From: Pseudomonadota bacterium
GTDB lineage: Bacteria; Pseudomonadota; Gammaproteobacteria; Burkholderiales; Burkholderiaceae_C
Reading direction: 5' to 3'
Assembly: GCA_021845505.1 (NCBI GenBank)
Contig: JAJZVU010000005.1
Location: 1-64,000, forward strand
DNA: 64,000 nt
How positions within the stretch are numbered: the stretch's first letter is position 1; each line of letters starts with the position of its first letter. The notes below the pieces were generated by a model that saw only the letters and a program-made list of their open reading frames with translations, was not told the origin of the DNA and ran no database searches. The translations under genes and the position numbers were made by a program. Positions 7,284 to 16,811 of this stretch are shown piece after piece.

Positions 7284-8237
7284 TCACGCCCAGCTGTGCG
7301 CGGCCCGCTCGGAGTCGTCGACCAGCAGCTCGCCGACCGCGGTGACCTGCGCCCGTCCGACCAGCGAGGGTCGTATGCACAGCCTGCCGTGCGCATCGTG
7401 GCCCGCGGGCTGGTAGCTGGCTTCGAACACACTGCCGGTGATCCCCTGCTGGCGCCAGATGCTGCCCGGCTGCAGCTTGCCGTCGGCCGCCAGGCAGGCC
7501 AGCTTGGCGCTGGTGCCGGTTCCGCAGGGCGAGCGGTCGTAGGCCTTGCCGGGGCACAACACGAAATTGCGCGAGTCCATGCCCGACGGCAGACCGGCCG
7601 CCGAGCACAGTTCGATGTGGTCGATCTCGGCACCGTCGCGCCCGCGGATCCCGCGCGCCTGCAGTTGCCCGCGGATCGCCCAGGCCAGTTCGCTCAGCGC
7701 CTCGCGGTTGGCCAGCTCCAGCGCGAGCGGCGGCTGCTCGACGAGGTAGAACCAGTTGCCGCCCCAAGCCACGTCGCCCACCACGCGGCCATGGCCCGGG
7801 ACCTCGAGCGCGACGTCCTTGTGCTCCCGGTACGCGACCACGTTGTCGATGCCGACGCGGCCGTCTCCCAGCCATTGCGCGCGCACCGGGCCCACCGGGG
7901 TGCGCAACCGACACTCGCCGCTGCCGAGCTCTCCGAGGAAGGCCAGCGAGGCCACGAGGCCGATGGTGCCGTGGCCGCACATGCCGAGCAGCCCGACGTT
8001 GTTGAAAAACACCACCTCCCCCGCGGCCTGCCCGGGCGCCGGCGGCCAGTAGACCGCGCCGACCAGGATGTCCGAGCCCCGCGGCTCGACGATCGCCGCC
8101 TCGAGCAGCCAGCCGGATCGCCGGCGAAGCTCGGCGGCCCCGCTCTCCACCCCCTGCGCAGGGCGCTCGACGCCGCCCAGCAGGACCCGCGTCGGCTCGC
8201 CACCGGTGTGGGAATCGATGAACCGCAGCCTTCTCAC
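7284..8237 (-). CDS. Proline racemase / 4-hydroxyproline 2-epimerase family enzyme
   Basis: A 317-aa PLP-independent racemase/epimerase. GTG 8237 is chosen because the conserved start RFIDSHTGGEPTRV follows at once and the upstream small gene stops 2 nt before. Both catalytic cysteines are present: Cys87 in MCGHGT and Cys238 in SPCGTGTSAK. A Thr in the second position would mark trans-3-hydroxyproline dehydratase, so epimerase or racemase chemistry is expected. Canonical hydroxyproline genes (lhp dehydrogenases, deaminase) are absent nearby, so the substrate is open. It may be the last gene of the long minus-strand operon that begins at 16811. Confidence 0.85.
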   Translation of the reverse strand: MRRLRFIDSHTGGEPTRVLLGGVERPAQGVESGAAELRRRSGWLLEAAIVEPRGSDILVGAVYWPPAPGQAAGEVVFFNNVGLLGMCGHGTIGLVASLAFLGELGSGECRLRTPVGPVRAQWLGDGRVGIDNVVAYREHKDVALEVPGHGRVVGDVAWGGNWFYLVEQPPLALELANREALSELAWAIRGQLQARGIRGRDGAEIDHIELCSAAGLPSGMDSRNFVLCPGKAYDRSPCGTGTSAKLACLAADGKLQPGSIWRQQGITGSVFEASYQPAGHDAHGRLCIRPSLVGRAQVTAVGELLVDDSERAAHSWA

Positions 8238-8473: not shown

Positions 8474-8740
8474 TCAGGTCGAAGGCGGAGCGACGCACCC
8501 CCGCTGCTCGCCCGCGCAGTCGCAGTCGCGTCCCGACAGCGCCATCCAGGCCCGCGCCGCGGCCAGCACGAACAGCGCGGCCAGGCCGGCCAGCGCGAGC
8601 AGCCAATGGCTGGCCAGCGCGGCGCCTGCCGCGGTGCCGGCCAGCGCACCGACCAGCAACGGCAGGTGGCATGGGCAGGCCAGCACGGCCACACCGGTCC
8701 ACAGGTAACCGCCGAGGGATTTGCGAGCCGAGGGTTGCAT
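8474..8740 (-). CDS. merE: MerE-like mercury transport membrane protein
   Basis: An 88-aa inner-membrane protein. ATG 8740 gives GYLWTGVAVLACPCHLPLLV, close to the MerE signature of a helix carrying Cys-Pro-Cys-His (Cys22, Cys24, His25). A second helix follows at about 44-66. MerE is normally about 78 aa; the extra C-terminal tail holds three more cysteines (73, 75, 82) that could also bind metal. MerE is known as an importer of Hg(II) and organomercury. No merR, merT, merP or merA is present here, so this is an orphan inside a catabolic gene string. Confidence 0.75.
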   Translation of the reverse strand: MQPSARKSLGGYLWTGVAVLACPCHLPLLVGALAGTAAGAALASHWLLALAGLAALFVLAAARAWMALSGRDCDCAGEQRGCVAPPST

Positions 8741-8822
8741 GGCGAGCCCAGGTAGCGAAGTTCCAGCGCACATCCTACCCTCGGCGGCGTGCCGGCGGCA
8801 CGCCCCATCGCCACCGGCTCGC

Positions 8823-9818
8823 TCAGTCGGGCTCGATGCGCAGCAGCAGCTTGCCCCGGCTGGCACGCCCCTCGAGCAGCCGATGCGCGGTCGCCGCCTC
8901 GGCCAGCGGCAGTTCCCGGTCGATGCTCACCCGCAGCCGACCCGACGACCAGTGCGCGAACAGCTGTTCGCAGCGCTGCCGCAGTTCGTCGCGGGTGGCG
9001 ATGTAGTCGGCCAGGTGCGGCCGGGTGAAAAACACCGAGCCGGCCTCGGCGAGCTCCAGCGGGGTCACCGCCGGCACCGCGCCCGAGCTGGCGCCGTAGA
9101 GTATGCACAGGCCCCTCGGCTTGAGGCAGCGGATGCTGCGCTGGATGGTTTCGCGTCCCACCGAGTCGTAGACCACGTCGACGCCGTTGCGTTCGGTCAG
9201 CGCCAGCACCTGGTCGCGGAAATCGACCTCGCGGTACAGGATGCAGCTGTCGGCTCCGCAACGCATGGCGATGTCCGCCTTGTCGGCGCTGCCAGCGGTG
9301 GCGATCACCCGGGCTCCGCGCAGCTTGGCCAGTTGCACCAGCAGTTGCCCGACTCCGCCGGCCGCCGCGTGCACCAGGCAGGAATGCCCGGGCGACAACG
9401 CGAAGGCCGAGGTCGCGAGATAGTGGGCGGTGCAGCCCTGCAGCATCAGCGCCGCGGCCACCGCGGGCGGCACCTGCCTGGGCACGGGAACCAGCCGCCA
9501 CGCCGGAACCACCGCGAACTCGGCATAGCTGCCGCGCGACAGGCAATACGCCACGCGGGTGCCGACCGCGAGGTCCTGCACGCCCTCGCCCACCTCGACC
9601 ACCGTGCCCGCGCCTTCCATGCCGACCGTCATCGGCAGCGGGGTCTTGTAGGTCTCGGAACGCGCGTACATGCCCTTGCGCATGTACACATCGATGAAAT
9701 TGACCCCGGCACACGACAATCTGACCAGCGCCTCGCCGGGCCCCGGCCGCGGCGGCTCGACGTGGACGAGCCGGAGTTGGTCGGCTTCGCCGAAGCCTTC
9801 GATCTGGATGGCCTGCAC
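8823..9818 (-). CDS. NADPH:quinone oxidoreductase, zinc-independent MDR family
   Basis: A 331-aa medium-chain reductase. A GTG at 9818 starts the product (MQAIQIEGFGEADQL after initiation). An N-terminal GroES-like domain (about 1-125) is followed by a Rossmann fold with AAAGGVGQLLVQLAKLRGA as the NADPH loop and VYDSVG downstream. No structural or catalytic zinc cysteine set is visible, as expected for the Qor branch. It lies 16 nt after the flavin oxidoreductase gene in the mutase operon and may reduce an alpha,beta-unsaturated carbonyl or quinone intermediate of that pathway, which is inferred from context only. Confidence 0.85.
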   Translation of the reverse strand: MQAIQIEGFGEADQLRLVHVEPPRPGPGEALVRLSCAGVNFIDVYMRKGMYARSETYKTPLPMTVGMEGAGTVVEVGEGVQDLAVGTRVAYCLSRGSYAEFAVVPAWRLVPVPRQVPPAVAAALMLQGCTAHYLATSAFALSPGHSCLVHAAAGGVGQLLVQLAKLRGARVIATAGSADKADIAMRCGADSCILYREVDFRDQVLALTERNGVDVVYDSVGRETIQRSIRCLKPRGLCILYGASSGAVPAVTPLELAEAGSVFFTRPHLADYIATRDELRQRCEQLFAHWSSGRLRVSIDRELPLAEAATAHRLLEGRASRGKLLLRIEPD

Positions 9819-9834: not shown

Positions 9835-10806
9835 TCAGCCGGCCGCCGCCTGCGCGGCGGGCTCGCGCCGCAGCCGCGGCATGATCTCGCGGGCGAAATG
9901 GCGCATGCCCTGCAGCGGCGGGATCGGCTGGATGATCAGCGACGACACCCCCGCCGCCTGCCATTGCCCGATCCTGTCGACACAGGCGTCGGCGCTGCCC
10001 CAGAGGTTTTCGTCCAGCACGTCCTGCGGGGTCGGCGGCGTGGCGAAGCGGTGTTCGCGCTCCTTGGCGTACTTGACGCTCCACTCGCCGACCTGCTGCT
10101 GCGAAAGTCCCCCGAGGAACACCGTCGACGTGGCCATGTCCAGCGGCCGCCCGCCGCGTCGGCGCGCCATGTCGGCCGCGTACCCGGCGATCACCCGCGG
10201 CGGCTTGGAATAGAACAGCCAGGCGTCGCCCAGTTCGGCGGCCAGCTGGCGCGTGGCCTCCGAATCCCCCGGCACCCAGATGGGGATATGGGGCTTCTGC
10301 ACCGGCTTGGGCGAGACATGCGCCTGCTTGAGGCGGTAGAAGCGGCCGTCGAAGTCGACGAAGTCCTCGGTCCACATCGCCTTGGCGATCAGCAGGGCCT
10401 CGCGCAGCCGCGCCACGCGATCGTCGTGGTCGTCCCACGGCAGGCCGTAGCCCTCGCTCTCGCGCCGGAACCACGCCGAGCCCAGCGAGTAGATCAGCCT
10501 GCCGCCGAACATGACGTCGAAGGTCGCCGCCATCTTGGCCATCAGCGCGGGATGGCGCAGCGAGTTGTTGAAGGTGTGGCCGGCGAACCGCACCCGCGTG
10601 GTCAGCGCGGCCAGCGCCGACAGCACCGTCCAGCACTCCAGCATCGGCACGTCGACCGCCATGTGGGCGTTCATCACGTGGTCGGGCAGCCACACGCTGT
10701 CGAAACCCAGATCCTCGGCTTCCAGGGTCATCTGCCTGGCCAGATCCCAGCCCTGGCCGGTGGCCCCCATCTCTCCCTGCACCGCAAGCCGGACTCCCAG
10801 ATGCAT
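9835..10806 (-). CDS. LLM-class (luciferase-like) flavin-dependent oxidoreductase
   Basis: A 323-aa TIM-barrel flavoprotein of the bacterial luciferase-like group. Features are the LAEDLGFDSVWLPDH-type early segment (here EAEDLGFDSVWLPDH), GHTFNNSLRHPALMAK, and SLGSAWFRRE for flavin and substrate contacts. It starts 48 nt after the mutase E gene and precedes the quinone reductase by 16 nt. Members use FMN or F420 and act as monooxygenases or dehydrogenases; which applies cannot be read here. Its operon position suggests a step on the same carbon source handled by the mutase. Confidence 0.82.
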   Translation of the reverse strand: MHLGVRLAVQGEMGATGQGWDLARQMTLEAEDLGFDSVWLPDHVMNAHMAVDVPMLECWTVLSALAALTTRVRFAGHTFNNSLRHPALMAKMAATFDVMFGGRLIYSLGSAWFRRESEGYGLPWDDHDDRVARLREALLIAKAMWTEDFVDFDGRFYRLKQAHVSPKPVQKPHIPIWVPGDSEATRQLAAELGDAWLFYSKPPRVIAGYAADMARRRGGRPLDMATSTVFLGGLSQQQVGEWSVKYAKEREHRFATPPTPQDVLDENLWGSADACVDRIGQWQAAGVSSLIIQPIPPLQGMRHFAREIMPRLRREPAAQAAAG

Positions 10807-10854: not shown

Positions 10855-12351
10855 TCAGCCCATGCGCGGCTGCCAGGGCAGCAGTTGCGCCAGCGGTTCG
10901 CTGAATTCGTAGACGCTGGACACCGCCAGCGAATGGTCGAACGCGACGCCCTCGCGCTCGGCCCTGCGGCGCAGCGCGGCGTGATGCACTTCCATCACCT
11001 CGGCGGGGATCGGCACCTTGCCGGCGTCGAGGATGCGGATGTAGCCGTCGGCATCGCGCGCCGGCATGATGCGGCTCTTCACATGGCGGTTGGGCGACCA
11101 GGGGATGTCGAGCACGCCGCTGTCGAAGGCGCGCACCGCGCCCAGCGCCGGATCGCCGTCGCCGATCTCCAGCACCTTGTCGACAATGGGCCTGACTTCG
11201 CTGGCGATCAACGCCTTTTCGCGCTCGTATTCCGGCATGCCGTCCAGCCGCAGGCCGCGCGCCATGTAGATGGCCAGGCGGGTCATGCGCAGGCCCTCGG
11301 CGTTGGCGCGGGGCGTCGGGATGCCGATCGCCTCGTGGGTCGACTTGGTGGTCACGCTGACCGCGCCGCCGACCGCGGCCAGCGTGCCGCCGTAGGAGAT
11401 CAGCGCCGCGCACTGCGCCTCGTCGTGCGGCCACGCCCCCATCCAGTGCAGCGAGGTCACCGGGGTGAAGACGTCCGTATAGCCGAACTTGCGCAGGTAT
11501 TCCTGACAGAGTTCGCCGCAGGCGGCGATCGCCGCCGCGTCCTGCACCAGGTGCAGGCACTGCCCGAGTTCGAGCCCGTAGTTGCGAACCCCCTGCGCGG
11601 CCGCCAGCAACGCGTCCAGGATGCAGGTGACGATCGCGATCGACGGCGGGATGTTGGTGCCGGTCAGGAACCCCGGCTGGCGCCGATGCAGTTCCACGCC
11701 CTTCTCGGCGTACAGCGCGGCGAGCCGGTCCAGGTACTGGTAGTTGCGGATGCCCTCCGCGATCGACAGGGTCTTGGTGTACGAGGTGGTGTAGGCGATC
11801 CCCGAGCCCAGGTATCCGGTGTAACCGGCCGCCAGCGCGATTTCGGAGGTGAGCCGGGGCATCGCCGTGCCCGACAGCACGATGTTCGGGCGCGTGCTCG
11901 ACTCCACCAGCCTGCGGCACGTCGCGACCCCGGCGGTGACGATCGGAAAGCCGTTGAGCATCGAGCGCCCCGCCGCCTCGGACTCCGCCATGCCGTGCTG
12001 GGCGGCGTCGAACTGCTCGTTGCGGGTATAGCTGTCGGTGGTCGTCGGAACGATATCGGCCAGGCCCTCGGACTCCAGCACCCGCATCAGTTCCATCTGC
12101 ATCGCCACCGTGCCGAAGCCGCCGCGCGGCTGGGTCAGGCACGCGCGCTGTTCGGCCGCCAGGCGCATCGCCCGCGCCAGGCTCTTGGCCTGCGGCATGG
12201 CCTTGTGGTAGGCCACTGCCTCGTCGATGTCGACCTGGGCTCCGGTCGGCCAGCGCGCGAGGTTGTCGCGGCGCATCGCCGCGAATTCATCCCACGGGAT
12301 CGGGCTCGCACTGACCTCGTGCGCCACCCTAGGCTGCACTGCTGTGTCCAT
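10855..12351 (-). CDS. glmE: Glutamate-mutase-like E (epsilon) subunit with altered substrate pocket
   Basis: Catalytic TIM-barrel subunit of an adenosylcobalamin-dependent carbon-skeleton mutase, 498 aa; ATG 12351 overlaps the MutL-type gene by 23 nt. Conserved family segments include the QPRGG loop, SYTR, AGRSMLNGFP and THEAIGIPT. Aligned from memory with clostridial GlmE at a constant offset of 10, Arg66 and Arg100 are kept (Arg76, Arg110), as are Tyr177/Tyr181 (Tyr187, Tyr191), the coenzyme-contacting Lys326 (Lys336) and Glu330 (Glu340). The third claw arginine, Arg149, is Leu159 and the amino-group ligand Glu171 is Leu181. The fold and B12 chemistry are secure; glutamate as substrate is doubtful. 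A different 2-substituted dicarboxylate or a monocarboxylate is plausible. Confidence 0.88.
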   Translation of the reverse strand: MDTAVQPRVAHEVSASPIPWDEFAAMRRDNLARWPTGAQVDIDEAVAYHKAMPQAKSLARAMRLAAEQRACLTQPRGGFGTVAMQMELMRVLESEGLADIVPTTTDSYTRNEQFDAAQHGMAESEAAGRSMLNGFPIVTAGVATCRRLVESSTRPNIVLSGTAMPRLTSEIALAAGYTGYLGSGIAYTTSYTKTLSIAEGIRNYQYLDRLAALYAEKGVELHRRQPGFLTGTNIPPSIAIVTCILDALLAAAQGVRNYGLELGQCLHLVQDAAAIAACGELCQEYLRKFGYTDVFTPVTSLHWMGAWPHDEAQCAALISYGGTLAAVGGAVSVTTKSTHEAIGIPTPRANAEGLRMTRLAIYMARGLRLDGMPEYEREKALIASEVRPIVDKVLEIGDGDPALGAVRAFDSGVLDIPWSPNRHVKSRIMPARDADGYIRILDAGKVPIPAEVMEVHHAALRRRAEREGVAFDHSLAVSSVYEFSEPLAQLLPWQPRMG

Positions 12352-13762
12352 CACGCACACTCCGCTCGATCGGTTGCAATTGCGAACTCGCCAGCGCCAT
12401 CGCCGCCTCCGGGTCGCGCTCGGCCAGCAGGCCGACCGCGTACAACACGTAGCCGCGGTCGAGGAACATCCGCGGCTGGCGCGGCCGCAGCGACTGCGGC
12501 TCGCCGGGAGCCCAGAGCGCCGCTTCCAGCATGGGCAGCGGGTCGGCGGCATGGATGATCGGCCCGCCGGTGCCGATCACGCTGGCCACCGCGCCCAGGT
12601 CCTTGCCGCGCTGCAGCGCCTTCGGTCCGGTGGCCGTGTAGACCGTCTCCACGGTGCCGGCGTGGCGCCGCATCGCGATGCGGATCGCCGCGCTGGCCAG
12701 CGCCTGGTCGAAGCGCGCTTCCTCGGCGTTCGCCGGCACGCGCTCGACATCGGCCGCCAGCATCGCCAGCAGCTGCGCCGCCCGCGCCTCGGACAGCCCG
12801 GCGGCAGCGGCGACCGGCCCCAGGCCGGCCGCCTCGACGATGGCGGTCGCGTTGTGGCGCATGCCCAGGTCGCCTTCGACGGTGCGCTTGGCGAAAGGCT
12901 CCGGCAGTCCGTGCATCAGCGCGTCGGGCCGCGTCGGCTCGCCGGCGCAGATGGAGTGCACGTCGGTGGTGGCCCCGCCGACATCGACCACCACGAGGTC
13001 GCCCAGCCCCGGCTGCCCCCCGGTGCCGGCGGCCAGCAGGCGAGCGCCCTCGAGCACCGCGGCGGGCGTGGGCATGAGCACCGCGTCGAACATCTCCGCG
13101 GCCCTGTCGATGCCCTTGGCGTGGACGATGCGCTCCATGAACACCTGGCGGATCACGGCCCGCGCCGGGTCGATGTCCAGCACGTTGAGCTCGGGCATCA
13201 CGTTGCCGGCGACGCGCACCTCCTTGCCGCGGCTGGCGAACTGCTCGGCGATCACGTCGGCCACCGCCCGGTTGCCGGCCAGCACCACCGGGCACGCCAG
13301 CTCGCTGGCGCTGAGCAACCCGGCGTTGTGCAGGATCACGTCCTCGTTGCCGCCGTCGGTGCCGCCGCACAGCAGCAGGATGTCGGGCTGCAGCTGCAGC
13401 ACCTGGCGGATGTCCGCCGCGTTGAGCCGGTAGGCGAAGGTGCCGACCAGCTTGGCCCCGGCCCCCAGCGCAGCGCGTCGCGCCGCCTCGGCGGTCAGGT
13501 CCTTGACCAGGCCGACGGTCACCATGCGCAGCCCGCCGGCCGCGCTGCTCGACGCCAGCCTGTGCCGAAAGCGCGGCAACCCGCCCAGGCGCCTGTCGAG
13601 GTCGGCGAGCGCGACGTTCAGCCCGACCGTGACGTCGCTGGTCACCGTCGACGGCCCCTGGCCGCTGCCGAGGATGGCGCCGCCGCGCAGGTCGACCGCC
13701 CGCAGCTTGGTGAAGGTGCTGCCGAAATCGATCAGCAGCGCGACATCGTCGCGCCCGCTCAT
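12329..13762 (-). CDS. glmL: MutL/GlmL-type accessory ATPase of the mutase
   Basis: A 477-aa ASKHA-fold protein of the glutamate-mutase MutL family (unrelated to mismatch-repair MutL). ATG 13762 overlaps the S-subunit stop (ATGA). The phosphate-1 loop [17 protein letters not shown] is at about residues 8-24, and the second phosphate motif [13 protein letters not shown] lies near the middle. Members resemble hydantoinase/diol-dehydratase reactivases and are thought to protect or reactivate the B12 enzyme. The placement S-L-E is typical of clostridial glutamate mutase loci and supports a working three-gene mutase unit. Confidence 0.88.
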
Positions 13763-14220
13763 GATGCCGCCAGCCTCGCCCCGGCGGCACGCGCCGCGAA
13801 ATCGCGGTCGAGGGCCGAGACCACGTCGTCGGGCCGGGTGCCCGGCGGGAAGGCGCGGTCGAAGCCCATCGCCAGGAAGCGCTGCTCGACGTCGGGCCAG
13901 GCTTGCTTGCCGACCACCAGATTGCCGCCGACGTACAGCAGGATGTCGCCGATGCCGGCCTCGATGCACAGGTCGCGGAAGCCCCGGCAGTCGAGTTCGC
14001 CCTGGCCGTACAGCGAGGACACCAGGATGGCGTCGGCCGCGGTCTCGATCGCGCCCTCGATGAATTCGCGCGCCGGGGTCAGCGCGCCCAGCGAAACCAC
14101 CCGGTAGCCGGCGCTCTCCAGCGCGAGCGACAGGATGCGGTTGCCCACGATATGGGTATCCGAGCCGATCACGCCGGTCAGCAGCGTCCTGCCGTGGCGC
14201 GCGGTGGGTTGCGAATGCAT
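13759..14220 (-). CDS. glmS: Glutamate-mutase-like S (sigma) subunit, cobalamin binding
   Basis: A 153-aa B12-binding protein. ATG 14220 lies directly after the stop of the enolase-superfamily gene. The base-off/His-on cobalamin motif DxHxxG is present as SDTHIVGN, followed by VSSLYGQGE and [10 protein letters not shown], which wrap the nucleotide tail. The length fits GlmS/MutS (about 137 aa) plus a short tail. It pairs with the E subunit to form the heterotetrameric mutase. It is better conserved than the E-subunit pocket, consistent with kept cofactor chemistry and changed substrate. Confidence 0.92.
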
Positions 14221-14221
14221 G

Positions 14222-15325
14222 TCAGACCACTCCCTGGGAACTGGGTACCTTGCCAAAATGCGCCTGCTCGACGCTCACCCTTGCCAGCGCCGCCTCGTCG
14301 AGCCTGGGCGGCTCGGGCTCGAGCCAGAGCATGCCCCCCTCGACCCGCAGGGGCCTTCGCACCAGCGGCGCCGACTGCTTCAAGAAACCGTTCATCTCGC
14401 CGGCGTTGCGGATGTGACTGCGCGCCACGCAGGCCTCCATCCAGCAGCCGATCTCGGTCGCGACCCCGTTGCCCAGCACCGGCTCCATGCCCAGCGACCG
14501 CACGCGCTGCAGCGCGTTCCCGAGGCGCTGCACATCGCCGAGCTTCATCAGCTTGAGCTTGACGTAGCGCGCGCCGATCGCGGCCGCCCGTTCGATGTCG
14601 GACTCGTCGTAGATCGATTCGTCGAGCATCAGCGGGGCGTTGGAAACACGGGCCACCGCCTCGGCGGCGTGCCAGTCCTCGGCTGCGCAGGGCTGCTCGA
14701 TGAGCTCGATGTCCCGCGGGTCGACCGCGCCGACGAAGCGGCAGGCCTCGGCCTGGCTGAAACCCTGGTTGGCGTCGATGCGGATCTGCGCTCGCCCGCC
14801 GACGCAGCGCTGCACCTCGGCCACGCGGGCCAGGTCCTGCGCGACGTCGAAGCCGACCTTCATCTTCAGCGTGCGGTAGCCCTGCGCCAGGTGGCGCTCG
14901 ATCTCCGCGGCCAGTTCGGGGCCGCCGTCGGCGCCCAGGGTCGCCAGCAGCGGCACCCCGGTCGCCTCGGTCACCTGCAGCGCCGGGTCGGCCTGCAGCA
15001 TGTCCAGCGCCGTCGCGAAGGCCGTCGCGGTGAAGGGCGCGCTGGCGTAGTGCCCCGCGAGGTGCTGCCGCGCCCGCGCGGCCGACATCCCCGGCAGTCG
15101 CGCGGCCAGCTCGCGCGCCAGCGCCCAGGCGCCCTCGACGGTCTCGTCGGTGTAGCCGGTCAGGATGGTCGCGTCGCCCCACCCGCTGCCGGCCGGCGCG
15201 TCGACGCGCACCAGGATGGTGTCGAACCTTGTCACCGCGCCCAGCGACAGCTTGTAGGGCGCCTTCAGCGGCACCTGCAGGCGCCGCACCACCACGGACT
15301 CGACCGTCACGCTCGCATCGCCCAT
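14222..15325 (-). CDS. Enolase-superfamily enzyme, muconate-lactonizing (MLE) subgroup
   Basis: A 367-aa mandelate racemase/muconate lactonizing type enzyme. ATG 15325 has a strong Shine-Dalgarno stretch (GGAAGGAAG) just upstream; a second in-frame ATG lies at 15352. Catalytic features are KMK (Lys154, Lys156), metal ligands Asp184 in RIDANQG, Glu210 in ELIEQP and Asp235 in MLDES, and the opposite base Lys258 in KLKLMKLGD, like dipeptide epimerases and cycloisomerases. The superfamily always abstracts a proton alpha to a carboxylate. The enzyme sits where a methylaspartate ammonia-lyase would be expected, but its motifs are not those of canonical MAL. It could be a lyase, epimerase or cycloisomerase acting before or after the mutase. 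Confidence 0.85.
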
Positions 15326-15386
15326 CGATGGCTTCCTTCCTTCGATTCGCATCCCTGCCCGGGGCGGCCGGCCGCGGCCGCTCGGG

Positions 15387-16811
15387 TCATTTGCCCACCA
15401 AGGCGCCCGGCACCGCGTCGCCGGACATCGCGGCGGTGTCGCCGGACACCTCCTCCAGCGTGCGCTTGGCCGTTTCCTTGCCCCAGAACAGCACCACGAT
15501 GGGGCCGGCGATGCCGACGAGCCCGATCACCCGGAAAATCCCCGCGATACCCACCGTCGCCAGCAGAACCGGCACGAAATACGGACCGACGACCCCGCCG
15601 AGCAGCCGGCTCACCGCTTCCACCGTCGACGACCCGGTCGCACGCAGGCGCGTCGGATATTGCTCGGCATAATACATCTTCAAACCCGGGAAGGTGCCGG
15701 TCCCGAAGAAACTCATCAGGCAGCCGTAGGTAATGACCAGCGGCAGCGAATGCACTTCTCCGAAAAACATCGCCCCCACCGACGCCAGCACCATGAAAAG
15801 GATATAGACCGGTTTGCGTCCCCAGGTATCCGAAAGCCATCCGTTCAACAGCTTCCCGGGAATCGCCGAGCCGGTGATGATGGCCGTGTAGAGCAGCGAA
15901 TGGGCGATGCTGTAGCCGTCCTTGACCAGCAGGCTGGGCATGTAGATCATCACCACGTAGAACATCAGCAGCGCCGAGATCATCGCCGCGCTGCCGACCA
16001 CCGTCTTGCCCAGCTGGGCGCCGCTCCAGACCTCGGCGACGGTCGGCCGCGGCTTGCCCTGCGGCACCAGCAGCGGGATCATCCGCGGCGCCGGCAGCGC
16101 CCTGCCGGTCTCGTGCTCGACCCTCTGCTCGATCGCCCGCATCGCGCCCTCGGCCCGCTCGCGGCCCAGGCGCACCTCCATCCAGCGCGGCGACTCGGGC
16201 ATCCACTTGTGGGCGATCGCCGCATACACCAGCGGCAGCCCGCTGACCACCAGGAACACCCGCCACGACTCGGTGGGAGCGAAGCGCGGAAGGATCAGCG
16301 CGCCGAGCAGCGGGGCCAGGAAATAACCGACCGACAGGCAGCCGTCGAGGATGCCGTTGAAACGGGCGCGGGTGGTTTTCGGAACGAATTCGCTCACGAT
16401 CGCGTAGGGCAGCGGGAAAACCGCACCCATGCCCAGCCCCGACAGGAAGCGGATGGTCAGCAGCACGTGGTAATTCGGGCTGAACGCCGCCAGCACGGTC
16501 AGCGTGCTGTACTCGATCACCCCCCATACCAGAACGCGCTTGCGACCGTAGCGGTCGGCCAGATAGCCGGCCGGGATCAAGCCGAGGACGATGCCGAAGG
16601 TCGACGACACCGCCAGCATGCCCACCTGCCCCGGGGTCAGTTGCATCACCCGGCGCACGCTCTCGAGCACGACGCCGATGGCGCCGATATCCAGCGACTC
16701 GATGAACCAGGCCGCCCCGGCGAACCAGATAACCAGCCATGTGAATCCGCTGAGCGGCAGCCTTTCCATGCGGCCCGCGATATTCAGCGGTTCCATCGAT
16801 TCCTTAGCCAT
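15387..16811 (-). CDS. MFS transporter, organic/aromatic acid:H+ symporter type
   Basis: A 474-aa, 12-helix major facilitator. ATG 16811 is preceded by GAAGGAG at good spacing. Sugar-porter/aromatic-acid symporter signatures are present: an Asp in helix 1 (IESLDIGAIG), GYLADRYGRKRVL after helix 2, PESPRWM before the central loop, and GWLSDTWGRKP after helix 8. It is the first gene of the minus-strand operon, 61 nt before the enolase-family gene, and most likely imports the acid that the mutase pathway degrades. Confidence 0.88.
   Translation of the reverse strand: MAKESMEPLNIAGRMERLPLSGFTWLVIWFAGAAWFIESLDIGAIGVVLESVRRVMQLTPGQVGMLAVSSTFGIVLGLIPAGYLADRYGRKRVLVWGVIEYSTLTVLAAFSPNYHVLLTIRFLSGLGMGAVFPLPYAIVSEFVPKTTRARFNGILDGCLSVGYFLAPLLGALILPRFAPTESWRVFLVVSGLPLVYAAIAHKWMPESPRWMEVRLGRERAEGAMRAIEQRVEHETGRALPAPRMIPLLVPQGKPRPTVAEVWSGAQLGKTVVGSAAMISALLMFYVVMIYMPSLLVKDGYSIAHSLLYTAIITGSAIPGKLLNGWLSDTWGRKPVYILFMVLASVGAMFFGEVHSLPLVITYGCLMSFFGTGTFPGLKMYYAEQYPTRLRATGSSTVEAVSRLLGGVVGPYFVPVLLATVGIAGIFRVIGLVGIAGPIVVLFWGKETAKRTLEEVSGDTAAMSGDAVPGALVGK

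Follow-up and report, generated by a model that had tools for sequence, protein, structure and literature searches.

We analyzed a 64,000-nucleotide stretch of DNA from a Pseudomonadota bacterium (contig JAJZVU010000005.1; hereafter, the window) that encodes, on its minus strand, an enzyme resembling the coenzyme B12-dependent glutamate mutase. Three genes, denoted S, L and E, match the GlmS, GlmL and GlmE profiles: the B12-binding subunit S (13759-14220; TIGR01501, 179.1 bits vs. a cut-off of 135.8; PF02310), the GlmL/MutL-type accessory ATPase L (12329-13762; PF13941, 538.7 bits; NF040745, 585.1 bits vs. a cut-off of 475), and the substrate-binding subunit E (10855-12351; 498 amino acids). 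E scores above the equivalog cut-off of TIGR01503 (447.1 vs. 390.1 bits) and is therefore a methylaspartate mutase E subunit according to the NCBI model. Adjoining S is the gene for an enzyme of the enolase superfamily (14222-15352; PF13378). These genes belong to a tightly packed minus-strand run, with overlaps of at most 23 bases and gaps of at most 48, in the order MFS transporter, enolase-superfamily enzyme, S, L, E, luciferase-like (LLM) flavin oxidoreductase, and MDR quinone-oxidoreductase-like enzyme; the start codons of the window genes, including that of the MFS transporter, were picked by us.

Residues 21-481 of E align with residues 11-471 of chain B of the Clostridium cochlearium glutamate mutase structures 1cb7 and 6h9e without gaps and with an offset of 10 throughout (phmmer against PDB sequences, E value 1.2e-117). 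The AlphaFold model of E (mean pLDDT 91.7, pTM 0.92) superimposes on 6h9e chain B in a constant register (Z 60.2, rmsd 1.2, 477 residues, 40% identity); in the structure ranking, the next entry below 1cb7 is lysine 5,6-aminomutase (Z 26.9), with all others lower. Both comparisons agree with the ungapped alignment that had been proposed in an earlier reading of the DNA, made without database searches (the sequence-only reading). The window residues at GlmE positions 66, 100, 149, 150, 171, 177, 181, 326 and 330 are R, R, L, S, L, Y, Y, K and E, respectively. Thus, Arg66, Arg100, Tyr177, Tyr181, Lys326 and Glu330 are retained, and Arg149 is exchanged for Leu, His150 for Ser and Glu171 for Leu, so that the arginine claw is incomplete and the amine ligand is gone. 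These assignments are identical to those of the sequence-only reading, and the proper alignment, which that reading had named beforehand as a refuting test, does not put Arg149 or Glu171 back. Its statement that the B12 features are kept also holds, with Lys326 and Glu330 present in E and DTHIVG in S, an instance of the DxHxxG motif that we take to signify B12 binding. In glutamate mutase, according to PMC9545868, Arg66, Arg149 and Glu171 hold the glycyl part of the substrate, and Arg100 and Tyr177 hold the acrylate part. Given these roles, the ligands of the acrylate half are kept in the window enzyme, and of those for the migrating half, the amine ligand and one of the carboxylate ligands are missing.

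Scanning species genomes yielded 55 further loci, from which up to 10 kb on either side of E was fetched, giving 56 loci with the window; the sites are covered in the window and in 54 of the 55 (L054 is too short). Leu149 and Leu171 are present in all 55 covering rows, and Arg149, His150 and Glu171 in all 12 canonical rows, which come from Clostridium, Peptoclostridium, Prevotella, Escherichia coli, Ensifer, Gemmobacter, Rhizobium, Roseibium, Methylobacter, Streptomyces and two more genomes. Because the Leu/Leu pair occurs in every clade row and in none of the canonical ones, chance or sequencing error is excluded as its source. Position 150 in the clade is Ser or Thr, the sole exception being Pro in L051, and Lys326 and Glu330 are found in every aligned row of the window and the fetched loci. 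As for the pocket change, the sites named in the sequence-only reading stand, but its extent had been underestimated: 24 positions switch between the Leu/Leu and canonical sets, that is, 22 besides 149 and 171, including GlmE 102 (N to E), 147 (Q to I), 180 (P to S), 216 (F to P) and 322 (K to S, 47 rows). An Arg that had been missed replaces Glu at position 214 in 49 of the 55 rows, with Glu in the other six, and at position 291, His is replaced by Leu in 49 of the 55, with His in six.

The Leu/Leu form makes a clade of its own, a question that the sequence-only reading had raised. In a tree of 65 rows (built without L036, L037, L044, L054 and L060), all 51 Leu/Leu rows group together at a node with support of 96/93, and a single change is reconstructed in every one of the 200 bootstrap trees (100%); long-branch warnings apply to this tree. 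The loci derive mainly from Pseudomonadota, along with three from Rokubacteria and single metagenome-assembled genomes (MAGs) labelled Nitrospira, Acidobacteria, Bacillota, Chloroflexi, Desulfobacterales and Deltaproteobacteria; one locus, L053, is from Hyphomicrobium sp. CS1BSMeth3, and L003, which is 97% identical to the window, was treated as a near-copy. Among plasmids, 30 records carry a relative, all below 60% identity, and the Leu/Leu pair is absent from all 10 that were fetched.

Several related proteins show other combinations. In the Desulfobacterales MAG (L051), the Leu/Leu member has lost both tyrosines, with Asp177 and Phe181 at their sites, and the substrate may differ again. A GlmE-like protein of the window's class (L059, genome G014; Q66 R100 V149 T150 S171 E177 H181) is neither canonical nor Leu/Leu and is a candidate for a changed substrate; another, from Fusobacterium vincentii (L068; Y66 R100 K149 H150 D171 H177 F181), likewise fits neither set. 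On a plasmid of Roseibium aggregatum (L067), a canonical-type E adjoins an amino acid adenylation protein and an aromatic amino acid lyase, an arrangement resembling a natural-product cluster.

The clade also differs from canonical systems in its partner enzyme. Genome searches for methylaspartate ammonia-lyase, the enolase-superfamily protein, SauS, Xsc and sulfopyruvate decarboxylase covered the window's own genome and those of 50 of the 55 loci, 51 clade genomes in all (L048, L049, L051, L052 and L054 lie outside this set). Full-length methylaspartate ammonia-lyase (PF07476) was found in only one of the 51 (G418, 345 bits), which is not the window's own genome; PF07476 exceeds a low cut-off in seven of the 51, the matches apart from G418 being partial (~27-34 bits), and in 2 of 14 controls. 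In the canonical contrast set, an ammonia-lyase is annotated beside the mutase in six plasmid operons and in none of three biosynthetic-looking stretches; one more fetched stretch carries no annotation. The cluster of the enolase-superfamily protein, on the other hand, is represented in 30 of the 56 loci, and a homologue (E value ≤1e-40) occurs in 45 of the 51 clade genomes vs. 1 of 299 genomes of a phylum sample, that one being the window's own (p 1.6e-50 with the own genome removed from the background, for which at most 6 candidates per genome were scored).

The nearest solved structure to this protein is that of L-Ala-D/L-Glu epimerase (AEE; 1jpm), and the bi-lysine set and the three metal ligands, named for their roles in the superfamily, are aligned in 30 of 30 members of the window-type cluster. 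The match to 1jpm amounts to only 111 bits and the gene context is different, so the substrate is probably another one. We infer from these sequence features that the protein would epimerize the carbon alpha to a carboxylate, with the substrate or product of the mutase as its proposed substrate; an epimerase is expected at this place because the proposed neighboring mutase would make a branched acid. The fixed Leu149/Leu171 clade, the lack of a full-length ammonia-lyase in 50 of the 51 genomes and the enolase-superfamily partner in 45 of them favor the proposal of the sequence-only reading that S and E would form a carbon-skeleton mutase for a substrate other than glutamate. Glutamate fermentation and the methylaspartate cycle, considered as roles of the system, are rejected by the pocket changes and the missing ammonia-lyase.

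A pointer to the alternative role comes from the gene neighborhoods. The sulfoacetate pathway proceeds via SauS, SauCD and Xsc, with the TTT transporter SauXYZ, as described in the accessible part of PMC12625764. Neighbor clusters were defined as single-linkage groups of conserved open reading frames, without a gene finder, across the 56 loci, many of which are ended by contig ends. SauS is represented in 15 loci, SauC-like proteins in 11, SauD-like proteins in 10, Xsc in 4, and three TauE-type clusters in 5, 4 and 3, so that 23 of the 56 loci have a gene of at least one of these clusters; TctC is represented in 22, TctA in 20, TctB in 16, MDR in 22 and LLM in 3. The SauS, Xsc, TctA and three TauE clusters are named from one tested member each, SauS and Xsc additionally via the genome searches: the SauS of L021 reaches 782.9 bits with NF047625 (cut-off 600) and the Xsc of L017 reaches 928 bits with TIGR03457 (cut-off 676.4), and TauE is named by Pfam. 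For SauC and SauD, the one tested member each is succinate-CoA-ligase-like and falls just under the succinate-CoA ligase cut-offs; the Sau names of these two, as well as the labels TctB and TctC, are our own reading. In five loci (L015, L020, L021, L022 and L045), S, L, E, SauS, SauC and SauD follow each other in a single-strand run, and in Azospirillum oleiclasticum (L007), the order is LLM-TctC-enolase-S-L-E-MDR-TctB-TctA-SauS-SauC-SauD.

This linkage extends to whole genomes. SauS scores over its cut-off in 40 of the 51 clade genomes vs. 6 of the 299 phylum-sample genomes, and Xsc in 41 of 51 vs. 21 of 299 (own genome counted in both sets; Fisher p 8e-37 and 9e-29, respectively, without the own genome in the background), p values that take no account of kinship or of the shallower scoring of the phylum sample. 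Seven genomes of the window's own family are in that sample, and over-cut-off SauS occurs in none of them and Xsc in two. In the own genome, Xsc (G000:C24:58305-60059) and SauS (G000:C24:67220-68605) lie on contig C24 with TctABC-like genes between them, and in 13 genomes, by hand count, the enolase-superfamily gene is less than 11 kb from an over-cut-off SauS on one contig. Conversely, over-cut-off Xsc occurs in 20 other genomes of the phylum sample, together with SauS in five, and all 20 are devoid of a PF06368 gene, which rules out the mutase as a requirement of sulfoacetaldehyde degraders. Because the mutase accompanies SauS and Xsc, whereas SauS and Xsc do not need the mutase, the latter looks like an upstream branch. 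Sulfopyruvate decarboxylase (TIGR03846) is over its cut-off in just 4 of the 51 clade genomes, and exit via this enzyme was rejected as a general route. In L012, L017 and L033, a luciferase-like gene stands just before S-L-E, with Xsc nearby, along with oxaloacetate-decarboxylase-alpha-like and PRISE-like genes.

A further set of genes recurs around the mutase. Nine loci have a member of a divergent succinate-dehydrogenase (SDH)-like iron-sulfur protein cluster near it, and five have class I fumarase genes there; in L026 and L043, these genes are on the strand of the mutase, in one run. The SDH-like flavoprotein (E value ≤1e-120) was sought in the own genome and those of 39 of the 55 loci, with 40 hand-picked phylum-sample genomes, eight of them Xsc- or SauS-positive, as background: it occurs in 34 of the 40 clade genomes (the query's own included) vs. 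3 of the 40 background genomes, and all three belong to those eight. It falls under every SdhA/FrdA model cut-off, and the tested copy ends at a contig edge. L026, L043, L015, L022, L045 and other loci combine the flavoprotein and iron-sulfur genes of this SDH-like set with those for class I fumarase, and sometimes with TauE, possibly for dehydrogenation and hydration of a succinate look-alike. The set would suit 3-sulfopropionate as such a look-alike or, alternatively, methylsuccinate, which contains no sulfur; according to PMC11489063, fermentation of sulfoquinovose and of 2,3-dihydroxypropane-1-sulfonate (DHPS) gives rise to 3-sulfopropionate.

Taken together, the homology, the B12 features, the clade-wide exchange of ligands, the enolase-superfamily partner, and the linkage to SauS, Xsc and TauE-type genes lead us to conclude that S and E are probably an adenosylcobalamin (AdoCbl)-dependent carbon-skeleton mutase with the glutamate mutase fold that does not use glutamate, is reactivated by L and serves organosulfonate catabolism. 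From the gene context, we infer a substrate that bears a sulfonate group. In the proposed mechanism, L would reactivate the S-E mutase, and homolysis of AdoCbl would lead to hydrogen abstraction from an acid R-CH2-CH2-COO- or CH3-CH(R)-COO-. Arg100 and Tyr177 would grip the acrylate-like half, and Arg66, perhaps with the new Arg214, would grip an anionic R without an amino group, as R shifts between adjacent carbons. The AEE-like enzyme would epimerize the alpha carbon of the branched acid, much as methylmalonyl-CoA epimerase works beside methylmalonyl-CoA mutase. The linear acid would then be converted to sulfoacetyl-CoA, from which SauS would produce sulfoacetaldehyde, and Xsc, in turn, acetyl phosphate and sulfite.

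Our first guess at the substrate is 2-methyl-3-sulfopropionate, which would be converted to 4-sulfobutyrate, and beta-oxidation of the latter would yield sulfoacetyl-CoA and acetyl-CoA; the second is conversion of 2-sulfopropionate to 3-sulfopropionate, and the third in order would be a sulfur-free dicarboxylate. That the enzyme itself moves CH2-SO3- or SO3-, via acrylate and a sulfur-containing radical, in either the 2-methyl-3-sulfopropionate/4-sulfobutyrate or the 2-/3-sulfopropionate pair, is a tentative proposal that we lean slightly against, and the literal substrate pair is a guess.

A number of observations weigh against the role in sulfonate catabolism. The co-occurrence may reflect lifestyle or kinship, given that most of the genomes are MAGs from related lineages, and the background was scored with 4 to 6 candidates per genome (4 to 5 for SauS and Xsc) vs. 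up to 38 in the clade genomes. Xsc is below its cut-off or missing in ten clade genomes (G382, G391, G397, G398, G399, G407, G410, G411, G413 and G414) and SauS in eleven (G381, G386, G394, G397, G398, G399, G407, G408, G409, G413 and G414), some with fragments, and neither is over its cut-off in the genomes of L031, L032, L040, L046 and L047. Among the 45 enolase-superfamily matches, identity is as low as 36-42% in the case of G384, G400, G407 and G413, and three matches are partial. Glu214 is retained in six divergent rows (L046-L049, L051 and L052), of which the genomes of two, L046 and L047, were searched. No fixed beta-oxidation set was seen beside the mutase in the locus neighborhoods, and the loss of Arg149 with no fixed substitute apparent nearby is odd for an anionic R.

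Some of the same evidence could be accommodated by a sulfur-free acid as substrate, for instance, glutarate/methylsuccinate, 2-hydroxyglutarate/3-methylmalate or 2-methyleneglutarate/3-methylitaconate, the sulfonate genes being fellow travellers in organic-acid specialists. With R = CH2-COO-, such a substrate agrees with the loss of the amine ligand; TctABC-type clusters, present in 16-22 of the 56 loci, belong to transporters that may import many acids; and the SDH-like flavoprotein (34 of 40 genomes) along with class I fumarase would suit the sequence methylsuccinate to mesaconate to citramalate. The genomes of L046 and L047, without over-cut-off SauS and Xsc, also fit, as does a 2-hydroxyacid-dehydrogenase-like gene close to the mutase in L047, L048 and L049. 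We nevertheless consider a sulfur-free substrate unlikely, since the S-L-E-SauS-SauC-SauD runs and the enrichment of both SauS (40 of 51 vs. 6 of 299) and Xsc (41 vs. 21 in the same two sets) are hard to account for in this way, and Xsc or SauS is also present in each of the three background genomes in which the SDH-like protein occurs. It is quite improbable that the two proteins have given up mutase activity or catalyze a different B12 radical reaction, for example, cleavage of a C-S bond. Sulfite could be expelled from a beta-sulfonyl radical, and TauE/SafE-family genes are present in some loci, but Lys326 and Glu330, which serve the cofactor, are conserved in every aligned row, and desulfonation is already supplied by Xsc (over its cut-off in 41 of 51 genomes). 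That the enzyme remains a glutamate mutase with a different mode of glutamate binding is very improbable: its TIGR01503 score (447.1 vs. 390.1) and the retained Arg66, Arg100, Tyr177 and Tyr181 are set against an amine ligand and a claw Arg lost and fixed as such across the clade, the absence of a full-length ammonia-lyase from 50 of the 51 genomes, and a different partner enzyme.

The remaining genes of the run lie on either side of S, L, E and the enolase-superfamily gene. The MFS transporter (15387-16811), first in the same-strand run, is of the aromatic acid/H+ symport type (TIGR00895, 218 bits, below the cut-off of 418.55). The LLM flavin oxidoreductase (9835-10806; PF00296) scores 171.3 bits with TIGR03560, 123.7 with SfnG and ~99 with alkanesulfonate monooxygenase, all below the cut-offs. 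The MDR enzyme (8823-9818) has 8j6e as its nearest solved structure, followed by 2-haloacrylate reductase (1wly, 229 bits), a likeness that would fit a 2-substituted acrylate/propionate pair. Directly downstream of the MDR gene, also on the minus strand, are a proline-racemase/4-hydroxyproline-epimerase-like gene (7284-8201) and one for a MerE-like small protein (8474-8866).

Known systems share parts of this organization. The S-L-E order, the fold, the B12-binding subunit, the GlmL-type protein and the kept residues are those of C. cochlearium glutamate mutase (GlmS/GlmL/GlmE), whereas the Arg149-to-Leu, His150-to-Ser/Thr and Glu171-to-Leu exchanges, the further changed positions, the AEE-type enzyme in place of methylaspartate ammonia-lyase, and the sulfonate neighborhood set the window clade apart. 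The proposed mutase-epimerase pairing is reminiscent of methylmalonyl-CoA mutase and its epimerase; however, methylmalonyl-CoA mutase reaches a Z of only ~22 against the E model and works on CoA esters, and the epimerase here would be of the enolase superfamily. To our knowledge, the coenzyme B12-dependent carbon-skeleton mutases are few, and we know of no earlier one of sulfonate catabolism. With the sulfoacetate pathway, the clade has in common its SauS, SucCD/SauCD-like, Xsc, TctABC- and TauE-type genes, which lie close to the mutase or elsewhere in the genomes that carry it, but the description in the accessible part of PMC12625764 names no mutase and no enolase-superfamily enzyme. In its accessible part, PMC8473912 treats glutamate mutase and Xsc separately; among the open-access matches listed, as far as their accessible parts go, there was no mutase of this kind tied to sulfonates, and no open-access paper was found on methylaspartate mutase together with sulfoacetaldehyde.

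If the proposed role is correct, this would be the first such mutase for sulfonates known to us, working with an enolase-superfamily epimerase across many uncultured bacteria. It would correct the naming of a protein group that would be labelled methylaspartate mutase by the NCBI model, and organosulfur cycling by environmental bacteria would gain a class of substrates as well as a branch of the pathway.

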